Assembly (NCBI GenBank): GCA_004298155.1
Contig: SCRD01000018.1
Location: forward strand, 186,001 to 250,000
Length of the DNA: 64,000 nt
Direction: 5' to 3'
Source of the DNA: Acidobacteriota bacterium
Lineage (GTDB): Bacteria > Acidobacteriota > Terriglobia > UBA7540
This document shows, piece after piece, positions 36,390 to 49,191 of the stretch. Position numbers and translations under genes: made by a program. The notes beneath the pieces are model-generated. The model was not told the origin of the DNA. It saw only the letters and a program-made list of their open reading frames with translations, and did not search any database. Position 1 is the stretch's first letter. The number at the start of each line of letters is the position of its first letter.

Positions 36390-36463
36390 TGGGAGGTCGT
36401 CTAACGGTAGGACTGCAGACTCTGGATCTGCGTATCGGGGTTCGAATCCCTGCCTCCCAGCCA
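36390..36463 (+). tRNA. tRNA-Gln (anticodon CUG)
   Basis: A complete cloverleaf. Acceptor TGGGAGG pairs with CCTCCCA, the D-stem is GTCT/GGAC, the anticodon stem GCAGA/TCTGC holds the loop CTCTGGA (anticodon CTG), and the T-stem CGGGG/CCCTG holds TTCGAAT, ending in CCA. An integrase remnant starts directly after it, so its 3' end was probably an attachment site. Confidence 0.95.
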
Positions 36464-36464
36464 C

Positions 36465-36743
36465 TCATTCCACAAAATTTGACTGGCCCATCCAATTCCC
36501 CGGACTTTGTTTCTTGCGGCTGTCTTGCGGATTGCTGCGGACTTGCCATGACACCGGGCTCATCAACAAACGCCACGTTGGCCCAGGGACCAATTGGCCG
36601 TAAATATCTGCAATTACCTGGATCGGGCCAGGCCCCATCTGCTCCCGTAAGTACGTGAGTGTTGCGCCTGCCTGGATGAGCAGGTTTCCGTGAGTGTGGC
36701 GAAGGTCATGGAACTGGACCCCGAGTGGCCCTGGAAGTACCAA
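36465..36743 (-). pseudogene. Tyrosine recombinase (phage-type integrase) C-terminal remnant
   Basis: The minus strand encodes the C-terminal catalytic part of a tyrosine integrase: FHDLRHTHGNLLIQAGATL (His-x-x-Arg box), then IADIYGQLVPG with the nucleophile Tyr. The N-terminal core-binding domain and first catalytic Arg region are absent. After LVPG the frame is broken: restoring one missing base near 36585 would continue as ANVAFVDEPG and SPQQSARQPQ, the tail expected for this family, which is now in another frame. The gene ends 1-2 bp from the tRNA-Gln CCA. It is therefore a decayed remnant of an element that integrated into the tRNA gene. It cannot be active. Confidence 0.8.
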
Positions 36744-37143: not shown

Positions 37144-40100
37144 ATGAAACGCCCTCGCCTGGACGTCTCAGCCCTTTGTAATCGTCGATGGCCCCGCCTT
37201 CCGAGAACGGGTTTCTCCATCACTGATTTACTGGACAACCAATCACAATTTTCCCTTACGCGCCGTGAGATGCTGGGTTTGGCAGGGACTGCTGCCGCCA
37301 GCCTCCCACTCAAATTCGGCGCACCAGAGGGCCGCCTGCAGTTCATTCCCGGCAACAAACGCGTTGCCTTCAGGCTGGACGGCAGGGAACGGTGGGCAAT
37401 CGATACCCGGCGGTTCTCGGGCACTCCCGCATTGCACGTGGCCCAGAGGAAAAACCTTGTCCATGTCGCGCTGGTCAACGCCCGCTACCCCGGTACAGAG
37501 TTGCCAGCCGGCCTGGAGTGCAAATTGGAGCCCGTGGCAGCAGGCTGGCGTATGCACCTTCGGATGGAATTAGGCGGCTTTCAGGGCGAAGCGCTTTTTG
37601 AGCGCTGGCTGGCTGGCAAAGCGAAACTGCGGTCAGACGTACGGCTGGATAAGAGCATTGCGGGACCGGGGAATTCGTCGCGCCTTCTGCTGGCTGGCCG
37701 CGCGCAAGCTGAATTCATGCCCAACTGGACAATACGCCTGGCTGGTAAGGGAATCGCGCGCCTCAGCGGTTTTGGGGGCGAAACGGTTTCGGACTCTGTA
37801 GCCATTGCGCTGCTCGATCCTGACGAACCCAGCATCCTCAGGAAACCGCCAGAGCGCCGGACCCTGCTGGCCATGTATCGGCATGGAAGGCCGTGGCCGT
37901 TCGAACCGGTTCTTGGAGCGGAAGACGCTTCAAATCTCATGGTTTCTGACAGTGCTTTTGACCGCATCCAGATGGAAGCTGGCGAGGATTTCGACGGAGC
38001 CAGCAGCCAGGTCCTGCTTGCAGATTCGCAGGTGGGCCGGCCCGGAATTGCGTTCATTCCAGCAGGCAACTTTGGTGCGAGCGATGGCAAACCCTTCCGT
38101 CTGCCGTTGCGCAATGCGCGATATGCCATCACGACTGACGCCAGCGGACAGCAGGCGGCGATTGTGGCGAATTACCCGTCCGAGCCCTTGTGGGTCCATG
38201 CTGAAGGCTGCAGCTTTGAAATTGGCAGCAGCGCGGACGACCATACATTTGAAGCCGTCAGCGTGAACGGAAGCGCGCCGCGAATACGCTGTGCGCCTGG
38301 TTTGAATCAGATTGCTGCACCATTGCCCGGGGTTATCGTGCAGGCACGTCCCCTCCAGGAAGGAACACAACTGGCCTTCTTGGAACCTCCGCAGACGTGG
38401 CAGGAACAAATCATACCGGGCAAGATCAGGAAGAAGGAGCAGAAGGAGCAGAAGAAGCAGAATAAAGAGAGCATTCGGCTCCAGGTTCAACCAAGAAAAA
38501 AAACCGGTGGAGCACTCGTTGCGCCTGGAAACACAAGGGGCCAGCACTCGACGAACCCCGCCGAAGGTGGTACTCAGCCGCTGGTTCCATCGGGAGGGTC
38601 GACCACACCCGGCAGGATCTCTGGCGCACCCCAGACCAACCCAGCGGAAGGCGGAACTCAGCCGCGGGTCCCGCCGAGAGAACCGGGGACTCCGTTGCAC
38701 ATCGAGCCGGGAAGCATAAATGTGGTGCTGGGGGGAGGCCAACCGGGAAAACAGAAAATCTTGCCGCATCCGGTGTTCCAGCCGACCTCTGAGCAGAGTC
38801 TCAGCTTTGACATTATCCGGCCTGACGACCTTTTGGCTCTCACTTTCAATTTTTACAACATGACGCTTTCGGCGGGCGTCGGGACGCCAGGCCTGGTTCG
38901 CGTTGACCCGAATCAGCCGGCCTACCTGGTAGTCCAGTTTGGGCCACAGCATATCGCCGAGGAAGCGTTTTTCGAAAGCAATACTCCGCAGCCGCTGCCC
39001 AGGAATGCTGAGCCGCCTATCCCCTCGCGGTTGGCTGGCGGCAGCCGCCTCGCCTTCATCATCCCCGATAACGTCACTGAGATTCCTTATACGCTTGAGT
39101 CTCTACTGAACTGGTCGCAATTTGAACTGAGCGTTACACCACTCGCAACCCCTCCCAAGCCGTTCCGCCTCAGATATCTGTCGACAACTGGATTGGCGAA
39201 GACGGCCAGGGAACCCCAAGTCCAGGCGATCCAAAGTTCTCCCGAGTATTACCAGCAGGTCCAGCCGCCGGCCATCACTACAAAGCCCGCCGCGCCTGAC
39301 GGTAAGAACAAGAAGAGGAACAGGAACCAACAGTCGACCATCCTGGCGCAAAGAGAGATTACACAGGCGCAATTCGCAGGCGGCCTGCAGTTCCTGGCGC
39401 AGCAGATCAAGGAACCCGAGGTTTTCCAGACTGCGCTCGAAGTTCCGTACAGGATCATCCTCTCACCTAGCTATTACGCGGGTTGGGCGCACTCGTTAAA
39501 ACCTGTTGAACACGGCGGGGCCACCGAGCTCTGGCACACGCGGCTCGGTGTCAGGTTTCAGCAAGGGAAGGTTGACGAGCAGGACGAATATTACAGGACG
39601 GTGCGCGCCGTCTGGGCCACGGATTACCAGGCAGGGTGTTTGCCCGCGCCGCAGACTGATACGACCCCGTTTGCGACTCCGACCATCAATGCACGACAAC
39701 GCTATGAGATTGTCAGGCTCTCTTCCGATCCCACCATCACGACTGTTTCTAACGCGGCGTACGAACCACAGCCTATTCAGGTGAACCGACTCATGCTCTC
39801 CACCATCGGCGCCTGGATGAACACAGATGGCGTATGGGAGCCGCCTGAAGACGTCCGAGAGCCGGCGTGTCCGGGCGGGAAATTCTCTTTCAACGTTGAG
39901 AGCTGGCGGCATATTGCCGCCATGGGACGCGACCAGTATGTGCGGATCGTGGAGCGTGGCTACCTGTTCCCGTTCGGCCATCGCGCGGTGAAGATCGTCA
40001 TTACAGAGCGCAAATTCGACCGGACGCCATCCGGGGACATGGCGGCCTATCTCCGCCAGCAGATTTTTGTGGTTGTACGCGAACGCGAAAAGAGTTATCC

Positions 40101-42033
40101 GGCCACAGGCCAGCCCCATCCGCAGGGTCCCCAGATACCATTCCAGACCGTCCGCATCGACACTCTAAGTACCCCGGCGCTGGACCAGCCCGTCAGCATA
40201 CTGCCGGGCGATGCCGCCTTCTGGCCGCGCGTGGACAACCAGGATTTCCAGTTCAAGATGGTGGGAGTGGACTGGGAAGGGAATAAAACTGAGTTTACCG
40301 CACCTCTGATTTTTGTGATTGCGGACTCCGCGCGCAATATGCAGCAGTCTTCCACCATCCTGAATTCTTACAATTCCGATCCTGATAGCACCCGGCGCGT
40401 GCGTCCTTTCTTCGGTCAAAAAGTGGCCTACGCAAAGAACAAGTTGCCGGGCGACACCGCGTTTGAAACCGACTCCATGTCCTTTACGGGCGAGGTGCCA
40501 GAGAACCCGCAGGTCGTTCCGACGGGCCAGCCGTATTTCTATCCAGCCATCAGCCAGTCGGCAGTCCGCATTGCCACTGTTGAGCAACTTACCGGCCGGA
40601 ACGCAGCAACCGACATCGCATATGACGCAACCTACCTTGCGCACGGGATTGAAGCCGCCGCCAACCAGGGCCAGGTGTTTGCCAAACTCCTGAACTCTAT
40701 CCCGCTGGCGTTTGGAGGGTCGGGAGGCGGTTCCGACAAGGTGGGTGGCCTGCTGACCCCCAGCATGGATATTTCCGGGCTTTCACGCCTGCTGGGCCCG
40801 GTAGCAGGCGACCTGGCGACGATAACCGGAGGAACGTTTGACCCCAAACAGTTTTTCAACTCCGCGATGGGCGCCAAGCTCCTCGGTGATATTTCTCTGT
40901 CGGACGTCATCAATTCCGTCAGCAATTTTTCCTCAGCCGTGGAGAAGGTCCCGAAATTTATCACCAGCCAACTTCCCAATGCCGTTCAGACCAGTTTTAC
41001 ATGGCAGCCGGAAGTGCAGGATGCCTCCGCCGGGGCAGGCCAGCCTGCGTTCTTCAAGGTCACGGGCGACCGCAGCCAGGCGCTCACCGTGAACGCCACT
41101 CTGACCAAGACGCTCGATAACAATCCGCCCAGCTATGAAGTCAGCGCCGTGCTGAAAACCTTTGAAGTCCATCTGGTGCCGTCGGTTATCGAGGTTCTTG
41201 TCATCAAGTTCAAGAAGCTCTCCTTCAAATCGATAAATGGAAAAAAGCCCGATGTCAGCGCCGACCTCGATGCCGTCGAATTCGCGGGGCCTCTCAGCTT
41301 TATTAACGGGTTAAAGGACCTGATCCCGACAGACGGATTCAATGACCCGCCCAGTCTGGACGTAACGCCGCAAGGAATCGAAATGGGATACTCGCTGGGA
41401 TTGCCCCCGGTCAGTATCGGCCTGTTCAATCTCTCAAACGTGAGTCTTGCAGCGCGACTGAATATCTATTTCACCGGCGACCCTATCACTTTTGAATTTG
41501 ATTTCTGCCAGGAAGAGCAACCCTTCCTCCTTACCGTCTCACTGTTCGGGGGCGGGGGATATTTCGGACTCACGCTAACGCCAGCGGGAATTCGACGGAT
41601 GGCTGCGGAGTTCGAATTTGGCGGCAGCTTCTCACTGAACCTTGGCGTGGCCAGTGGCGGCGTTTATGTGATGGCGGGATTTTCCTATGCGTACACCAAC
41701 GGCGACACCGAACTCACGGGTTATTTGCGCTGCGGCGGGTCGCTGGAAGTTCTCGCCATCATCACGGTCTCCGTGGAATTCAAGATGGGGCTGACCTATC
41801 TGTCAGCCGGCAACAAGGTGTGGGGCCGGGCCACGCTGACCGTAGAGGTCAAAGTTCTCTTTTTCAGCCAGAGTGTTGACTTGACAGTGGAGCGCGAATT
41901 CGCGGGCGGCGGCGCGCAGAATGCGGCCCTTTATGGCGCGGGTGCGCCTTACCCGGTGGGAGCTGGTCCCGTGAATTTTGCGGACCAAATGAGCGCTGCC
42001 GACTGGCAGCTTTATTGCGAAGCGTTTGCGTAA
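37144..42033 (+). CDS. Giant protein of unknown family with Tat signal (1629 aa)
   Basis: I do not recognise this family. The N-terminal 35 residues are basic, followed by a twin-arginine signal (SLTRREMLGLAGTAAASLPL, residues 38-57), so export is likely. Residues 60-425 are beta-rich. Residues 428-447 are a Lys/Glu/Gln tract, followed by a Pro/Gly linker to about 520 with the duplicated motif TNPAEGGTQPxVP. A large middle region holds further beta-type segments (VRVDPNQPAYLVVQFGPQ, YRIILSPSYYAGWAHSL). The last ~250 residues alternate hydrophobic and polar residues with many Gly (LTVSLFGGGGYFGLTLTPAG, FEFGGSFSLNLGVASGGVYV), barrel- or fibre-like. The ATG at 37144 has GGAGG 8 nt upstream. The next giant gene begins 13 bp after its stop, so the two form an operon. 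It stands next to an old integration site. Confidence 0.8.
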   Translation: MKRPRLDVSALCNRRWPRLPRTGFSITDLLDNQSQFSLTRREMLGLAGTAAASLPLKFGAPEGRLQFIPGNKRVAFRLDGRERWAIDTRRFSGTPALHVAQRKNLVHVALVNARYPGTELPAGLECKLEPVAAGWRMHLRMELGGFQGEALFERWLAGKAKLRSDVRLDKSIAGPGNSSRLLLAGRAQAEFMPNWTIRLAGKGIARLSGFGGETVSDSVAIALLDPDEPSILRKPPERRTLLAMYRHGRPWPFEPVLGAEDASNLMVSDSAFDRIQMEAGEDFDGASSQVLLADSQVGRPGIAFIPAGNFGASDGKPFRLPLRNARYAITTDASGQQAAIVANYPSEPLWVHAEGCSFEIGSSADDHTFEAVSVNGSAPRIRCAPGLNQIAAPLPGVIVQARPLQEGTQLAFLEPPQTWQEQIIPGKIRKKEQKEQKKQNKESIRLQVQPRKKTGGALVAPGNTRGQHSTNPAEGGTQPLVPSGGSTTPGRISGAPQTNPAEGGTQPRVPPREPGTPLHIEPGSINVVLGGGQPGKQKILPHPVFQPTSEQSLSFDIIRPDDLLALTFNFYNMTLSAGVGTPGLVRVDPNQPAYLVVQFGPQHIAEEAFFESNTPQPLPRNAEPPIPSRLAGGSRLAFIIPDNVTEIPYTLESLLNWSQFELSVTPLATPPKPFRLRYLSTTGLAKTAREPQVQAIQSSPEYYQQVQPPAITTKPAAPDGKNKKRNRNQQSTILAQREITQAQFAGGLQFLAQQIKEPEVFQTALEVPYRIILSPSYYAGWAHSLKPVEHGGATELWHTRLGVRFQQGKVDEQDEYYRTVRAVWATDYQAGCLPAPQTDTTPFATPTINARQRYEIVRLSSDPTITTVSNAAYEPQPIQVNRLMLSTIGAWMNTDGVWEPPEDVREPACPGGKFSFNVESWRHIAAMGRDQYVRIVERGYLFPFGHRAVKIVITERKFDRTPSGDMAAYLRQQIFVVVREREKSYPATGQPHPQGPQIPFQTVRIDTLSTPALDQPVSILPGDAAFWPRVDNQDFQFKMVGVDWEGNKTEFTAPLIFVIADSARNMQQSSTILNSYNSDPDSTRRVRPFFGQKVAYAKNKLPGDTAFETDSMSFTGEVPENPQVVPTGQPYFYPAISQSAVRIATVEQLTGRNAATDIAYDATYLAHGIEAAANQGQVFAKLLNSIPLAFGGSGGGSDKVGGLLTPSMDISGLSRLLGPVAGDLATITGGTFDPKQFFNSAMGAKLLGDISLSDVINSVSNFSSAVEKVPKFITSQLPNAVQTSFTWQPEVQDASAGAGQPAFFKVTGDRSQALTVNATLTKTLDNNPPSYEVSAVLKTFEVHLVPSVIEVLVIKFKKLSFKSINGKKPDVSADLDAVEFAGPLSFINGLKDLIPTDGFNDPPSLDVTPQGIEMGYSLGLPPVSIGLFNLSNVSLAARLNIYFTGDPITFEFDFCQEEQPFLLTVSLFGGGGYFGLTLTPAGIRRMAAEFEFGGSFSLNLGVASGGVYVMAGFSYAYTNGDTELTGYLRCGGSLEVLAIITVSVEFKMGLTYLSAGNKVWGRATLTVEVKVLFFSQSVDLTVEREFAGGGAQNAALYGAGAPYPVGAGPVNFADQMSAADWQLYCEAFA
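38551..38664 (+). repeat. Duplicated proline/glycine linker motif inside the giant gene
   Basis: TNPAEGGTQP is encoded at 38551-38580 and again at 38635-38664, 84 bp apart and in frame, each followed by a Val-Pro dipeptide. The DNA copies have diverged at synonymous positions, so the duplication is old and under protein-level selection or drift. Confidence 0.75.
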
Positions 42034-42046
42034 GAGGGAAAACTTC

Positions 42047-45000
42047 ATGGCGAAGAAACAAACGATTATCTGGACTGCGTTGCCGAACGGCATCTCCAAT
42101 GGCCAACTGCAGCTTTCGGTTTTCGTCTCTCCTCGCCTTCAAACGGATGAAGGATTACCGCGTCCGGCGCTGAGCCAGTTTGATGACTTCAAGAATTGGC
42201 CGAACAAGATAAAGGACATGAAGTTCACCGTGCAGTTTGAAGGTCAGTCGCCTGTTCAAGCAACTCGCGTGGGCCCAGCGGCTGAACCCGACGTGTGGAA
42301 TGCGCTTTTCAAAAGCACCACCTATGTCGAGCCCTACCAGTTCAACGACTACTCTGCCCGGCCCGTGATTTCGCATCCCGTCCTGAACCTCGGCTCGTTC
42401 GTAAAATCACAATACCAGTCGGTTGCAGCGGCCTCGCCCACCCGGCTGCCGTCACGGGCGGTTGTTCTTGAGAGGCTTGCTCCAATATCGCTTTACGCCT
42501 TGCCGGAAGCGGCTTCGCCGGCCAGCCGCACGGGAATGGCGTCGAGCCAGCGGTTTGCAGGCGCGCTCCGCACACAGCAACCGCAGAGTTTGCGGACGGC
42601 GCAGTCAACGCAACGGGCAGTGCGTCCGGTGGTTATCCCGGAAGACCTGACGAGCTTTGTCCGCACACTTCATCCAACTCTCCAGCAGAACGCCAATCGC
42701 AACATCCAAATGCTGGTGCGCGAGCCGTACGCCCTGAAGCCGGCAACGGTAAGCGCCTTCCAGAGCGTCTATCAGGATTTGCAGCAGTACAAGGCCGTCC
42801 GGCCATCTCCCCAGTTGCAGCCTGAACGGGACTTTCTGCTGTTGCGGATATCGAAGCCGGCGCTTCCGGAGGCGGCTCAACCGATTCAACTGCCGGAGAT
42901 AGATTTCCACAAGATCGTGTCGAGCCTGGGAAATTATCCTGAGATCATGAAGGCGCTGGGTCTGGTGATCAATTTGGCAGTACCGCTGCCGGGGAGCTTG
43001 GCAACAAACTCCACCGTGCGGGTCGCGCCCACCTGGTCGTCGGATTCGCAGCCCGCATCTTTCAACACCGACTTTTCACCCAAAACGGCATACGCGGCGG
43101 ACACCAGCAGGTCGTGGTTTGCTCCGCGTCCGGAAACACCCGATTCAGACATCATCGACGGCCAGCTCAAACTGAACGATCACCAGTCGTTCCCGGTGAT
43201 GAGCGTTGATGTGGACGGGTCTGCGTTGAAGATGGCCAACCTTGCTGACCGGCTCGCTTCGGCGGCCCTGGCGGAATCTGAAATGCCCGCGCCTGTGGAA
43301 AGGCATCCGATGATGGAGCGGATGGGGCCGTCTGGCAACGGCTCCGGGAAGACGCGGGCTTCTTCCGGTCCTTCGGGAGAAGTTTTGCCCGGCAATCAGG
43401 CGTTGCGATCGCAATCGACGGCAGCATTGCCGGCCCTGCGCACCGGTGGCCTTTCTGTTTCCAAGACGGGGAAGGCGGAATGGCTGGCCGGCATTTTTGC
43501 CAGAGCCACTCTGAACAATCAGGCCGTCGATAAGAACACTCCGGACCAGGTCACGCTCTATGCCGAAGACGTGGTGCGTGGCTATCGAGTGGACGTTTGG
43601 GATTCAGAAACCACGGCCTGGAATTCTCTTTGCCGGCGCGTAGGGACCTACAACTTTTTTGAGGCCAATATCCTGCGCCAGTATCAGGATGAGGGGTTTG
43701 TGCAGCTGGCCACCACGCAGTCTTCAGTGCAGCCGTCGTCCGGATCGAGCACGCCGCAAGACATGTACCTGCACGAATCCATGTTCGACTGGAACGGCTG
43801 GAGTTTGTGCGCGCCGCGGCCGGGCAAAGTGATCAGCCCTGATAGTACGCCGCAAAGCCTCGACGATCCTGCGGTGGCCCAGCAGCGCGCGCAGAGCGAG
43901 TTCAAAATGGTGGCAACGTTTGTTCCCCAACCGGGCTCACTTCCCAAGCTGCGCTTTGGCAGGACCTATCGCGTGCGGGCGCGTGTTGTCGATCTGGCGG
44001 GGAACAGCCTGACCCATGATGCCCCCAATCCGACAGATTTTTCCAAGGTTACTGATCCGCACACCTACAACCGATTTGAGCCTGTAGTGGGGCCGGTGGC
44101 CGTGCTGACAAAATCGCTTGACGGCTCCAAGTCTCCAGGGGAGGCCTTGTACCGGCCGGTTATTCGAAGCAATTTTGACAAGACCGCGCAGGAGTACGCA
44201 CAGGCTTACGCACAACGTATTTCCGATTCCTCGTATACGGCTTCTACTTTCCGGATTGTCGCTCCGCCCAAGACCAGCGAATTGATGGCCGAAAAGCACG
44301 GAACGCTCGACCTTTCTTCAGGAGCGATGAAAAAAGATCCGGCCACCTATCAGATGGTCGCCAAAATGGCGGACGGAGCTTTTGCGCTGGATCCCATGAC
44401 GAAAAACCCGGTCGCGGACAAGCTGGAAATGCCTTATCTGCCTGACCCGCTTTGCCGCGGAATGTCGATGGTGCTGCTCGACCACGACGGCAACAGTGTG
44501 GGAACGGTCCCGCCAGTTGAATTCTATCCGCAGGGGACCGGCTGGCCACAAGCGCAGCCTTTTTTCATCAAGGTGGTTGAAGGGCAGGGAAAGATTGATT
44601 GGAATTGGGATGATTCAAGCCGCACGCTGACCGTACAACTGCCGAAAGCTGAAGTTGCAAAGTTTGAACTGAGTTCCTATCTGGGCGGGGGCCAGATGGG
44701 TGTTCAGAATCAGGCGGTCCTGGGCGTGTGGAGCTGGATCCAGGAGGCCGGCCCCTCGAATCTGACAATGATACGCAGCGCCGCCGGGCAAGGGCGCTTG
44801 TGGATGCTAACGCCGGCGCGAGAGCTGGTGATGGTCCACGCCGTGCAGCAGCCGCTGATCGCTCCGGCGTTCCATCAGCTTTTGCCAAATCGCCACCTGG
44901 GAGAAACTTTTTCCTACATCGTGGATGACCGCGCAATGCCGGTTGACGGCAAGAGCACGCTGAAAGTGGACGTGCTCGCGAACTGGCAGGAGCCTATCGA

Positions 45001-46684
45001 CGATGCGAACGATCCCAGCGGGCCGAGAACTCAAACCGGTAACGCCCATGTTTACACTCGCGATCTCACGCCGGAAGACACCGCAATCTCCGACACGTTG
45101 GAGATGACGGCTGCCGCAGCGAACCATGAAACGATGGGGCCGCAACCCCTGAAGTCATCCACGCAAAGAATTGAGACGCGGCCTCTGACTGTTCAACAGC
45201 AGGTGCAATCGCACCAAGCACCGGCGCAGGCGGAACAGATGGCTCGCCCGGGCCAGGAATTCACTGCGCGGCCTGAATTCAAGCTTCAGCCCGGTATTCA
45301 GATCCCGAATGATGTGCGGCTCTACCGGCCGCCGAAATACCCCATCGGCCTCGAAAACTTTGGCTATTCCTGGCGGCATGACTTCGGAGATACCAGGTAT
45401 CGCAAGGTCAGTTACCAGGCAGTGGCCACCACACGGTTCAGAGAATATTTCCCTATCGCGAACTCCGACGAGCTGACACGCAAGAGCCCTCCCGTGGCTG
45501 TTGATGTTCCCAATTCCGCGCGCCCCGCCCGGCCAAACGTCCTTTACGTTGTCCCTGCTTTTGGATGGGACCGGAAAGAGAACGTTCGCTTTGATGGAAA
45601 CACACGGCCGGACATCGCGGGTACACCCATCTCGGGAATCAGCGGATTTGGTTCCACCAGCAAACGCATGCCTGGCGGCCTGCGCATTTATATGGACCGA
45701 CCGTGGTATTCTTCCGGCGATGGAGAACTGCTCGGCGTGGTGATCTGGCCCGGCGAATTGCAAGCGCCGCTGAAGTCGCCTGGCATCGTGATCCATCAAG
45801 GCGACCGGCCAAACGTCTCGAGCATGGCCGGAAATTTGCAACCCCAGCAAAGATCAAATCGATCAGTCCTGGCGAGGACAGCGCAGATTAGTTCCGGGTT
45901 GCCGGAGTCGCTGAGGCCGGTCGTTACCCAATGGGGGATTGATCCGATCTGGGAAGCGAACCCCCTGCCCGCGGAGCGGCCCTCGTTTGAGCACTTCAAG
46001 AACACCGCCCAGGTCGGCGTGCATCTCACGCTTCCGGAGCTTCAGGGTTTGCAGGACCCATCCGCCACATACTATGACGTCGGAGTCGCCGCCTACAAGC
46101 CTGAGTACGATAAGGACCGCCGGCTGTGGTACTGCGATCTGGAGATCGACGCTGGCAATGCTTACTTCCCCTTCATTCGCCTGGCGCTCGTTCGGTACCA
46201 GCCAAACTCACTTGCCAACGCGCACCTTTCCGGTGTGGTCCTTGCGGACCTGGCGCAGCTCACGCCGGAGCGTACAGCGGCCATAACCTACGACCCCAAT
46301 AACCCTAATGATGTCGATATTGTGATCGCGGGACTCAGTTATTCATCTACAAGCGCGGGCAAAGGTCCCAGCCTGGTTGAAGCCACGCTCGAAACCAATC
46401 CCACCAGCACTGACGACGAGACTGCATGGATACCCGTCCCTGACGGTACGATGGTCCTGCAAGCAAAGCCACTGGGCATCTACAGCGTCTGGCGTTACCG
46501 CCTTCGTCTGCACCGGCTCAAGGTCCCCAAGAACCAGGCGCTGCGGCTGGTGATCAAGGAATACGATATCCTTCAGGCCGACGCAATCAACCAGCAGGGC
46601 CGGGCAGTGTTGGCCGCGCGCGGGCCGGTTACGGGGCAACGGTTGGTTTATGCCGAGGTCCTGAAAGTTCCGCCCATCCACTGA
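42047..46684 (+). CDS. Giant protein of unknown family, no signal peptide (1545 aa)
   Basis: I do not recognise this family. The N-terminus (MAKKQTIIWTALPNGISNGQ) has no hydrophobic signal. Residues 130-490 are rich in Ala, Pro, Ser and Gln with few motifs. From about 500 the sequence becomes structured (VVRGYRVDVWDSETTAWNSL; MYLHESMFDWNGWSL). RFGRTYRVRARVVDLAGNSL near residue 636 looks like an Ig/fibronectin-type strand pair. Near the end, LRLHRLKVPKNQALRLVIKE suggests another beta domain. No transmembrane segment is seen. The ATG at 42047 follows AGAGGG at about 10 nt; the open frame begins 21 bp earlier and overlaps the upstream stop. Tight spacing indicates a shared function with the Tat-exported giant protein. 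How this partner would reach the same compartment is unclear. Confidence 0.8.
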   Translation: MAKKQTIIWTALPNGISNGQLQLSVFVSPRLQTDEGLPRPALSQFDDFKNWPNKIKDMKFTVQFEGQSPVQATRVGPAAEPDVWNALFKSTTYVEPYQFNDYSARPVISHPVLNLGSFVKSQYQSVAAASPTRLPSRAVVLERLAPISLYALPEAASPASRTGMASSQRFAGALRTQQPQSLRTAQSTQRAVRPVVIPEDLTSFVRTLHPTLQQNANRNIQMLVREPYALKPATVSAFQSVYQDLQQYKAVRPSPQLQPERDFLLLRISKPALPEAAQPIQLPEIDFHKIVSSLGNYPEIMKALGLVINLAVPLPGSLATNSTVRVAPTWSSDSQPASFNTDFSPKTAYAADTSRSWFAPRPETPDSDIIDGQLKLNDHQSFPVMSVDVDGSALKMANLADRLASAALAESEMPAPVERHPMMERMGPSGNGSGKTRASSGPSGEVLPGNQALRSQSTAALPALRTGGLSVSKTGKAEWLAGIFARATLNNQAVDKNTPDQVTLYAEDVVRGYRVDVWDSETTAWNSLCRRVGTYNFFEANILRQYQDEGFVQLATTQSSVQPSSGSSTPQDMYLHESMFDWNGWSLCAPRPGKVISPDSTPQSLDDPAVAQQRAQSEFKMVATFVPQPGSLPKLRFGRTYRVRARVVDLAGNSLTHDAPNPTDFSKVTDPHTYNRFEPVVGPVAVLTKSLDGSKSPGEALYRPVIRSNFDKTAQEYAQAYAQRISDSSYTASTFRIVAPPKTSELMAEKHGTLDLSSGAMKKDPATYQMVAKMADGAFALDPMTKNPVADKLEMPYLPDPLCRGMSMVLLDHDGNSVGTVPPVEFYPQGTGWPQAQPFFIKVVEGQGKIDWNWDDSSRTLTVQLPKAEVAKFELSSYLGGGQMGVQNQAVLGVWSWIQEAGPSNLTMIRSAAGQGRLWMLTPARELVMVHAVQQPLIAPAFHQLLPNRHLGETFSYIVDDRAMPVDGKSTLKVDVLANWQEPIDDANDPSGPRTQTGNAHVYTRDLTPEDTAISDTLEMTAAAANHETMGPQPLKSSTQRIETRPLTVQQQVQSHQAPAQAEQMARPGQEFTARPEFKLQPGIQIPNDVRLYRPPKYPIGLENFGYSWRHDFGDTRYRKVSYQAVATTRFREYFPIANSDELTRKSPPVAVDVPNSARPARPNVLYVVPAFGWDRKENVRFDGNTRPDIAGTPISGISGFGSTSKRMPGGLRIYMDRPWYSSGDGELLGVVIWPGELQAPLKSPGIVIHQGDRPNVSSMAGNLQPQQRSNRSVLARTAQISSGLPESLRPVVTQWGIDPIWEANPLPAERPSFEHFKNTAQVGVHLTLPELQGLQDPSATYYDVGVAAYKPEYDKDRRLWYCDLEIDAGNAYFPFIRLALVRYQPNSLANAHLSGVVLADLAQLTPERTAAITYDPNNPNDVDIVIAGLSYSSTSAGKGPSLVEATLETNPTSTDDETAWIPVPDGTMVLQAKPLGIYSVWRYRLRLHRLKVPKNQALRLVIKEYDILQADAINQQGRAVLAARGPVTGQRLVYAEVLKVPPIH

Positions 46685-47028: not shown

Positions 47029-47832
47029 TTGCGAGCACCGTTCGTTGCGCTTTGCCTTGCGACGTTTTTTGCCACAGGCGCACTGGCACAGAAGCCTCAG
47101 GACCTGAAACCTCAGGGATATGTCAACGACTTTGCCGGGGTGATCAACCCGGAAACGGGAAGGGAGTTGAATTCCCTCTGTACCGAGGTGGACCGGAGGG
47201 GGCAGGCCCAAATCGCCGTTGTGACAGTGAAGTCGCTCGGCGGCGAGCCGATTGAGAATTTCTCAATTGACCTGGCAACGCGCTGGGGCATTGGGCCCAG
47301 GCAGAAAGACCGGGGCGTGTTGATCCTCCTTGCACCCAACGATCGCCGATATCGTTTTGAGGTTGGGTATGGCCTGGAGCCAATTTTGCCTGATGGTCTT
47401 GTGGGCGAGTTTGGCCGGCAGGCAAGACCGCTGCTTCGAGAAGGAGATTATAGCGCCGCGTTATTGCTAATGACGCAGCGTGTGGCTGCCACCATCGCGA
47501 AAGACCGCGGCATAACCCTGGAAGCGCTCGCCGGGCAACCAATCGCTGCGGAACCTCGAGGCGGGCCGTCGCCGGCTGGTGGCCCGAATCTCTTTCCTCT
47601 GCTGATCTTCCTGTTCATTCTGTTCTTTCCGTTTTTGGGATTGCTTGCGCGCCTTCTAGGTGGACGCCGCCGCGACGGGCGCGGGCACAGTGTCTGGTGG
47701 TGGGGCGGCCCATGGTACGGGGGCGGGATCGGAGGCGGCTCGTGGGGTGGCGGAGGATTTGGCGGTGGTGGAGGGTTTGGCGGATTCGGCGGCGGGTCGT
47801 TCGGCGGCGGCGGGGCCAGCGGAGGCTGGTGA
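47029..47832 (+). CDS. TPM-domain membrane protein (YgcG-like) with glycine-rich tail
   Basis: A 267-aa exported protein: signal peptide (residues 1-20, cleavage at ALAQ-KP), TPM domain at 28-158 (YVNDFAGVINPETGREL; DRGVLILLAPNDRRYRFEVG), one membrane span at 188-206 and a C-terminal tail of Trp- then Gly-rich repeats ending GASGGW. TPM domains appear in Psb32/YgcG proteins involved in membrane-protein repair. They often pair with LemA, which is found two genes downstream. The start is taken as TTG 47029 because no ATG or GTG occurs in frame upstream; this start is uncertain. It ends immediately before the nucleotidyltransferase frame. Confidence 0.85.
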   Translation: MRAPFVALCLATFFATGALAQKPQDLKPQGYVNDFAGVINPETGRELNSLCTEVDRRGQAQIAVVTVKSLGGEPIENFSIDLATRWGIGPRQKDRGVLILLAPNDRRYRFEVGYGLEPILPDGLVGEFGRQARPLLREGDYSAALLLMTQRVAATIAKDRGITLEALAGQPIAAEPRGGPSPAGGPNLFPLLIFLFILFFPFLGLLARLLGGRRRDGRGHSVWWWGGPWYGGGIGGGSWGGGGFGGGGGFGGFGGGSFGGGGASGGW

Positions 47833-47847
47833 GTGGGGGCGGAAACC

Positions 47848-48567
47848 ATGGAAGAACTCCTTGCGCAATTGAAGGACAAATTGCAGGCGGCAGCAGGCGC
47901 CAATCTGAAGGCCATCGTACTATTTGGTTCGGCCGCGCGCGGGGAATATCACGCACGCCACTCTGATTTGAATGTGCTCTGCGTGCTCGGGCGCACCCAT
48001 GCGGAAGACCTCGAAGCGCTGCACGAAGCGGCGGCGTGGTGGGAGCAAAAGAAATTCCCCGCACCCCAGATTTTCACTCTGGATGAATTACGGGCCTCGG
48101 CGGATATTTTTGCGATCGAGCTACTTGACATGAAGACGCACCACAGGATGATTTATGGAGAGGATTTTTTCGAGGGGCTGGATGTGCCTATGAAGTTGCA
48201 CAGACTACAGGTCGAACGCGAGCTGCGGACGAACTGGGTGAAACTGCGGCAGGGTATTCTGATGGCCCCGCACAAGGAGCGGGTGTTGATGCGCCTGATG
48301 GACGCGTCCGTATCGACATTTGTCACGCTGTTTCGCCACGCGCTGATTGTGCTGGGCGGGGATCCGCCAGCAGGGAGACGCGATGTTATAGCGGAAATCG
48401 CCCGCTTGAGTGGGGGTCGGCCCGATGCTTTTCTGGCGGTGCTGGATGTGCGCGAAGGAAAGCGCCAGGCCCGCGATGTGAAGGCACGGGAAACCCTGAG
48501 GGATTATCTGGACATGGTTGAGCGGGTAACGGACGAGGTGGACCGCAGGCTGTCAGGCAGCATATAA
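47848..48567 (+). CDS. Nucleotidyltransferase-domain protein (KNTase-like fold)
   Basis: A 239-aa protein with the nucleotidyltransferase signature VLFGSAARGEYHARHSDLNV (Gly27-Ser28, Asp40). The second metal ligand, usually Asp in DxD, is Asn42, so activity may be altered. The rest is mostly helical with an RRDVIAEIARLSG-type segment, resembling a HEPN/KNTase C-terminal helix bundle. GTG 47833 directly follows the TPM stop, but ATG 47848 has GGGGGCGG just upstream and is preferred. It lies between the TPM and LemA genes on the same strand, within 45 bp of each, so all three are probably co-transcribed. The substrate is unknown; minimal nucleotidyltransferases include antitoxin and antibiotic-modifying types. 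Confidence 0.8.
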   Translation: MEELLAQLKDKLQAAAGANLKAIVLFGSAARGEYHARHSDLNVLCVLGRTHAEDLEALHEAAAWWEQKKFPAPQIFTLDELRASADIFAIELLDMKTHHRMIYGEDFFEGLDVPMKLHRLQVERELRTNWVKLRQGILMAPHKERVLMRLMDASVSTFVTLFRHALIVLGGDPPAGRRDVIAEIARLSGGRPDAFLAVLDVREGKRQARDVKARETLRDYLDMVERVTDEVDRRLSGSI

Positions 48568-48609
48568 GCAGGGCCGAACACACGGAATGATTCCATTGGG
48601 AGGGAAACG

Positions 48610-49191
48610 ATGAAAAAAGGCTGGCTTGTGCTGATCGCAGTGGCGCTGGTTGTTCTGATTTTTGGCGGCATGTACGTCAGCTCGCGAAACAGCATGGTGC
48701 GGAAGAATGAGGCAATTAAATCAGACTGGGCGCAGGTGTCAGTGGTACTCGAGCGCCGGGCTGACTTGATTCCAAATCTTGTGGCGACGGTGAAGGGCGT
48801 GGCGGCGCAGGAAGTCACCGTATTTACGGCGGTGGCCAACGCGCGGGCAAATCTGATGAACGCCCAGACTCCCAAAGACAAAATCGCAGCAAACCAGCAA
48901 CTGGACGGAGCGCTGGCGAAAGTGCTGGCGCTGACCGAAAATTATCCCCAGCTGCGGTCGAATGAAAGCTTTTTGAAGCTGCAGGATGAGCTGGCAGGAA
49001 CGGAAAACCGCATTGCCGTGGAGCGGCGCCGCTACGACGATGCTATCCAGGACTACAACGCCTATATCGGGCAGTTTCCAAATAACATTTTCGCGGGTTG
49101 GGCGGGCTTCCAGAGAAACGACGCCTATTTCGCCGCTACTCCGGCGGCGCAGCAACCTCCCAAGGTGGAATTTCCTGCTGCCCGCGAGTGA
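48610..49191 (+). CDS. lemA: LemA-family membrane protein
   Basis: A 193-aa protein with one N-terminal span (WLVLIAVALVVLIFGGMYV). The conserved LemA core follows, with IKSDWAQVSVVLERRADLIP, LVATVKG, and LRSNESFLKLQDELAGTENRI then YNAYIGQFPNNIFA. The remainder is a helical bundle outside the membrane. GGGAGG precedes the ATG. LemA and TPM genes are frequent neighbours; here a nucleotidyltransferase sits between. The 3' end overlaps the convergent DUF4015 gene by 67 bp. The molecular role of LemA is not settled. Confidence 0.92.
   Translation: MKKGWLVLIAVALVVLIFGGMYVSSRNSMVRKNEAIKSDWAQVSVVLERRADLIPNLVATVKGVAAQEVTVFTAVANARANLMNAQTPKDKIAANQQLDGALAKVLALTENYPQLRSNESFLKLQDELAGTENRIAVERRRYDDAIQDYNAYIGQFPNNIFAGWAGFQRNDAYFAATPAAQQPPKVEFPAARE

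Follow-up and report, generated by a model that had tools for sequence, protein, structure and literature searches.

Among the described systems closest to the locus analysed here are the Tat hitchhiker complexes (the formate dehydrogenase FdnGH, the Ni-Fe hydrogenases and PaoABC), which, like this locus, have one subunit with a twin-arginine signal, an untagged partner and adjacent genes. Hitchhiker export of untagged partners has been established for other Tat complexes (PMC10924467, PMC4273604). The largest known Tat substrate is 142 kDa (PMC13186574), and the working size limit of Tat is ~150 kDa (PMC6708511). The window, a stretch of 64,000 nucleotides from an Acidobacteriota bacterium (contig SCRD01000018.1, positions 186,001 to 250,000), contains two giant genes, termed P1 and P2. 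A first-pass annotation made from the letters alone had described them as tightly linked ORFs of 1629 and 1545 aa with a 13-bp gap, belonging to no recognised family. Both ORFs were found to be intact and on the + strand, with exactly this spacing, and each is present in one copy in the genome, which groups with Acidobacteriota. The features of the pair were as follows.

37144..42033, + strand: gene P1, intact ORF of 1629 aa, 177 kDa
37144..37176, + strand: pre-signal motif MKRPRLDVSAL of P1, from comparison of N-termini (family consensus M-x(2-3)-R-L-[ND]-[LVI]-x-x-[LIV]-R)
37252..37320, + strand: Tat signal (twin-arginine type) of P1, SLTRREMLGLAGTAAASLPLKFG, covering residues 37-59 and read from the sequence (SLTRREMLGLAG...)
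37321..38730, + strand: N-terminal extension of P1, ~residues 60-529, confined to one P1 class, from the alignment and profile start positions
38731..41325, + strand: beta-rich core of P1 (AlphaFold, pLDDT mostly >90 up to ~residue 1190)
41326..41907, + strand: C-terminal amphipathic antiparallel beta-meander of P1, residues 1395-1588, barrel-like (VIA-align)
42047..46684, + strand: gene P2, intact ORF of 1545 aa, 170 kDa, with no signal peptide and with Ig/FN3-like domains

Support for the ATG start of P1 at 37144 comes from CTGGAGG, a good ribosome-binding site, and from the N-terminal motif MKRPRLDVSAL, which is common to relatives (compare MARNRLNLSSVR and MQPTRLDLSALR). Invariant columns in the alignment of the P1 core comprised the motifs TELWHTRL and GRDxYVRxV..PFGHRA..TERKF, and the glycine-rich beta C-terminus was among the best-conserved parts of the protein. 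Searches of Pfam, NCBIfam, PHROGs, PADLOC and PDB sequences with single proteins and profiles gave nothing significant for either protein, so that neither was assigned to a separate known family, and no homology was found between P1 and P2. A known anti-phage defence system was rejected, as no PADLOC model matched. A phage origin or a phage structural protein was also rejected, there being no match in PHROGs and both proteins being absent from 50,697 phage genomes. The sole IMG/VR contig with the pair (3300004093_000021, 16.7 kb) is labelled viral in that database.

Relatives of P1 were collected by a scan of GTDB species genomes, which yielded 145, of which 80 loci were kept; further loci were obtained from plasmid records and from genomes of the same phylum. 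In ~90 loci from more than 12 phyla, P2 came after P1 in the same orientation, with a median gap of 14 bp (n = 92). Only two exceptions to this order were observed among loci with enough sequence, a short Paraburkholderia fragment (L060) being left out of the full-P1 count. Both exceptions consisted of one lone P1, in the sister genomes of L077 and L088, each of which contains two P1 and two P2 genes, including another pair in which P1 and P2 are adjacent. When 347 Acidobacteriota genomes were searched with profiles, P1 was detected in 14 and full-length P2 in the identical 14. A weak P2 match was obtained in two more of these genomes, at least one of which (L150) contains a distant sister pair. 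This sister pair, which has the same gene order as P1-P2 and is also carried by Chlorohelix, Microvirga and Tistrella plasmids, aligns to P2 mainly across ~170 residues and consists of giant genes of ~1230-1700 and 1200-1400 aa.

L150:1764-9982: distant sister pair
L156:6850-15582: distant sister pair
L157:6952-15324: distant sister pair
L158:7202-15666: distant sister pair

None of the genomes checked contained a full-length copy of one partner and lacked the other. The distance matrices of P1 and P2 were correlated with an r of 0.909 (highest of 2000 shuffles, 0.18), which, as linked genes share ancestry, means that P1 and P2 stayed together and not that they touch. P1 and P2 form a nearly inseparable pair, maintained across more than 12 phyla. 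The proposal that these linked giants form an undescribed two-component system was strongly supported by the shared phyletic pattern, the adjacency in a fixed order, the co-divergence and the lack of any known family. A nameless two-gene module kept together over such a range must do something useful.

Phyla are interleaved in the P2 tree (FastTree with local support values, the phylum labels of MAGs being taken as given), with Caballeronia grouping with Nitrospira and Bradyrhizobium with Acidobacteriaceae, each with a support of 100. This mixing of phyla, combined with the matrix correlation, indicates that the pair travels as a unit, and copies of the pair are also present on conjugative or large plasmids. 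An old tRNA integration site had been suggested beside the pair in the window, where two features were detected.

36390..36463, + strand: tRNA-Gln (anticodon CTG), a putative old attachment site (ARAGORN)
36465..36719, - strand: decayed tyrosine-recombinase fragment (C-terminal part), VQFHDLRHTHGNLLIQAGATLTYLREQMG..., 2 bp from the 3' end of the tRNA-Gln

The pair starts ~700 bp from the tRNA-Gln, and the recombinase remnant matched Pfam Phage_integrase with an E value of 0.012, short of the cut-off. The suggestion is plausible, but as no second exact copy of the tRNA-Gln 3' end (attL/attR duplication) was found in the window's genome, an island is at most plausible; an empty site of the element was not found either. 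For the pair in general, the tRNA is an incidental neighbour, since relatives are found on plasmids and in other, unrelated surroundings.

The first-pass annotation had also assigned to P1 a Tat signal and a glycine-rich beta C-terminus, and to P2 an Ig-like strand pair but no signal, and had suggested a large two-component assembly (a surface, secreted or binding complex), with mixed targeting among its reasons. The signal (SLTRREMLGLAGTAAASLP) and the C-terminus of P1 are both real, and P2 was confirmed to combine Ig-like domains with the absence of a signal. A Tat signal was detected in 44 of the 99 P1 homologues, as against a mean of 2.4 and a maximum of 7 for shuffled N-termini. The N-termini of P2 open directly with a conserved domain, and motif matches in these proteins (3/92) were at the level of chance and inside the shuffled range. 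TatC is encoded in the window's genome (E value, 3e-68). In the long class of P1, which includes that of the window, a conserved R-L-N-L-x-x-[LI]-R motif is located ~20 to 60 residues ahead of the Tat signal, and traces of this motif were observed even in some signal-less P1 proteins of this class. Tat-bearing P1 proteins of 329-363 kDa were detected in Sinorhizobium meliloti, Agrobacterium vitis, Rhizobium and Ruegeria; these forms, on rhizobial and Ruegeria plasmids, are 3043-3311 aa in length and have canonical Tat signals.

L042:14284-23403: giant Tat-bearing P1
L059:12164-21322: giant Tat-bearing P1
L061:12233-21553: giant Tat-bearing P1
L043:13900-23835: giant Tat-bearing P1

In A. vitis, the pair, whose P2 is divided into two parts, is located a short distance upstream of genes bearing the annotation dpdE-H.

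A gene for TatA was found close to the pair at four loci.

L065:17842-18027: tatA, Symbiobacteriaceae, 12 bp after P2
L059:26688-26855: tatA, S. meliloti pC, 49 bp after P2
L133:1-204: tatA, Zipacnadia, ~300 bp before P1
L069:9527-9865: tatA, uncultured bacterium, ~20 bp before a Tat-bearing ORF

All four of these loci have a P1 with a Tat signal, a modest association (Fisher p = 0.04). As the last two loci are sisters, they represent three independent cases of linkage, and adjacency by chance is unlikely. A second S. meliloti copy (L162) consists of the pair without an annotated tatA alongside. These data support export for a subset of lineages, and the part of the earlier proposal that concerned secretion stands to that extent; support did not extend to a surface location. 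We give about even chances to the reading that P1 and P2 are two subunits of an obligate assembly that is exported by Tat in many lineages, with P2 hitchhiking, and that has spread as a gene pair.

The remaining P1 homologues (55/99, ~55%) have neither a Tat signal nor a signal of another kind, which rules out export as a universal function, and about half of the loci have no recognisable signal on either P1 or P2. Furthermore, P1 (177 kDa) and a 1:1 complex (347 kDa) are both above the known Tat range of 142-150 kDa; P1 may therefore have been misread as a Tat cargo, or P2 may stay inside. The pair could, accordingly, be primarily cytoplasmic (a scaffold, storage protein or carrier), with Tat signals having been added to P1 repeatedly and P2 never being exported. 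This would fit with the signal-less P1 proteins, with the lack of signals above chance in all of the P2 proteins, with 11 changes of Tat state on the P1 tree and with a size beyond that of known Tat cargo (PMC13186574). It is, however, an unlikely reading given that signals are kept in whole clades, including the four rhizobial and Ruegeria forms, that tatA is linked to the pair in the loci listed above and that secreted enzymes or Ig proteins adjoin several pairs.

No third gene conserved family-wide was found beside the pair, the neighbours being lineage-specific (synteny within Saccharicenans was discounted), and no recurring immunity-like partner gene was found there. Several of these neighbours are secreted or extracellular. 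Peptidases were present near some pairs, namely an astacin (L058), a subtilase (L137) and an M35 peptidase in Ruegeria, with a matrixin near the Microvirga sister pair. The Ruegeria pair also has a zinc-dependent phospholipase C nearby, and a weak GH19 match was detected near some copies. Big_3 Ig-domain proteins lie beside two Actinomycetota pairs (L094 and L141), a polysaccharide deacetylase with LysM neighbours the Symbiobacteriaceae pair (L065), and one Streptomyces P2 contains a peptidoglycan-binding-like insert that is slightly short of the cut-off. A secreted-looking protein of ~400 aa is encoded 10-43 bp after P2 in four Actinomycetota.

L125:17051-18310: ~400-aa secreted-looking protein
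L128:16909-18099: ~400-aa secreted-looking protein
L136:16897-18126: ~400-aa secreted-looking protein
L139:17176-18432: ~400-aa secreted-looking protein

One of these proteins was searched against Pfam and gave no match; it is possible that they represent a lineage-specific third component. In the window, inspection by eye of the region after the pair (47029-49191) suggested a secreted TPM-like protein whose tail is rich in glycine, as well as two ORFs, one small and nucleotidyltransferase-like and the other LemA-like.

The AlphaFold model of P1 residues 530-1629 had a mean pLDDT of 82.7. The C-terminal meander matched OmpG with a Z of 12.8 and FhaC with a Z of 11.5 (rmsd of 4.0 Å over 168 residues), and its last 10-12 strands exhibited a strong, regular hydrophobic/polar alternation. 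This barrel-like match spans only ~170-190 residues of the model and could be a common arrangement; as whole-model TM-scores were ~0.1, no overall fold is claimed. Outside the meander there was no clear fold match to the model, and Foldseek comparison of P1 to a viral library gave no meaningful match. A tachylectin-like propeller suspected by eye at the N-terminus of cyanobacterial P1 was rejected, as neither Pfam nor PDB yielded a match to a family of this type.

As the best structural matches of this C-terminus are outer-membrane barrels, FhaC among them, P1 might be an integral outer-membrane beta-barrel with P2 as its exported passenger, as in two-partner secretion. We regard this as highly improbable. 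Pairs occur in the single-membrane Streptomyces, Paenibacillus and Kutzneria, which makes an integral outer-membrane barrel unlikely; in addition, the protein continues for ~40 residues past the meander instead of ending with a beta signal, Pfam yielded neither POTRA nor ShlB at E values of up to 10, and P2 has no signal. Barrel proteins are, moreover, exported unfolded via Sec and not via Tat. A lipid- or membrane-binding role for the C-terminal sheet would fit better than an integral outer-membrane barrel.

A further explanation is that the pair forms a secreted membrane-active complex directed against microbes or hosts, in which the P1 sheet would insert into target membranes and the Ig domains of P2 would provide targeting. 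The alternation and barrel-like geometry of the P1 C-terminus, the patchy and plasmid-borne distribution, and the presence of astacin, subtilase, matrixin, zinc-dependent phospholipase C and weak GH19 matches near some copies are consistent with such a complex. Such alternation would, however, equally characterise a membrane barrel or lipid-binding groove; no Pfam match to a known pore-forming toxin family was obtained, and the variation of neighbours between lineages and the lack of a recurring immunity-like gene also argue against this explanation, which we consider rather improbable.

The fold of P2 was read through an Acidobacteriaceae homologue (L089; AlphaFold model of the first 1200 of 1225 residues), for which the mean pLDDT was 88.8. 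This model contains Ig/FN3-like beta-sandwich domains from ~residue 555, with middling VIA Z values of ≤8.6.

Under the reading of an obligate assembly with hitchhiker export, P1 and P2 would fold and bind to each other in the cytoplasm. In the Tat-bearing lineages, including that of the window, the Tat translocase would then export the complex by virtue of the P1 signal, P2 being the hitchhiker, and in a few lineages the co-encoded TatA may serve this oversized cargo. Outside the cell, the Ig-like domains of P2 would act as a binding arm and the C-terminal amphipathic beta-sheet of P1 would bind lipid or membrane, so that the assembly would serve free-living bacteria as an accessory binding complex, either secreted or at the surface. 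In signal-less lineages, the assembly would stay cytoplasmic or exit by another route. A bolder proposal, which we put forward tentatively and judge to have somewhat less than an even chance, is that these pairs represent a hitherto undescribed type of giant Tat cargo. In this view, two obligate subunits would make up a folded complex of ~350 kDa (up to ~500 kDa in rhizobia) that a single signal takes across the Tat translocase, sometimes with a dedicated TatA in the same operon, encoded by a two-gene module that moves between phyla. What is new here is the protein families and the conserved pair, which matched no known kind; the role of the pair is inferred. If Tat export is correct, then P1 alone (177 kDa, and ~330-360 kDa in rhizobia and Ruegeria) would exceed the largest known Tat substrate of 142 kDa, and with the linked TatA genes it would become possible to test directly how Tat adapts to cargo size.

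The pair differs in several respects from each of the closest known systems. In comparison with the Tat hitchhiker complexes, no cofactor-binding family or motif was recognised in P1 or P2; each of P1 and P2 is larger than the whole of FdnGH (142 kDa, PMC13186574), and some copies of the pair bring their own TatA. Two-partner secretion (FhaC/FhaB) also involves two large adjacent genes, and the C-terminus of P1 resembles FhaC in barrel-like geometry in a partial match of 168 residues, but P1-P2 has no POTRA/ShlB match (Pfam, E up to 10), carries a Tat rather than a Sec signal and occurs in single-membrane bacteria. Alpha-2-macroglobulin and complement C3 have similarly long Ig-like arrays, and proteins of this kind were the top Foldseek matches of P2 (E value, 8e-7). 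The TM-score was, however, 0.11, and P2 has no A2M Pfam domains and no thioester CGEQ, so the resemblance probably goes no further than a common arrangement of beta-sandwich domains. Giant Ig-repeat surface proteins and adhesins are likewise very large and beta-rich, with Ig-like domains; P1-P2, in contrast, has no Sec signal or anchor, is non-repetitive and, as a pair, is conserved over its full length in different phyla.
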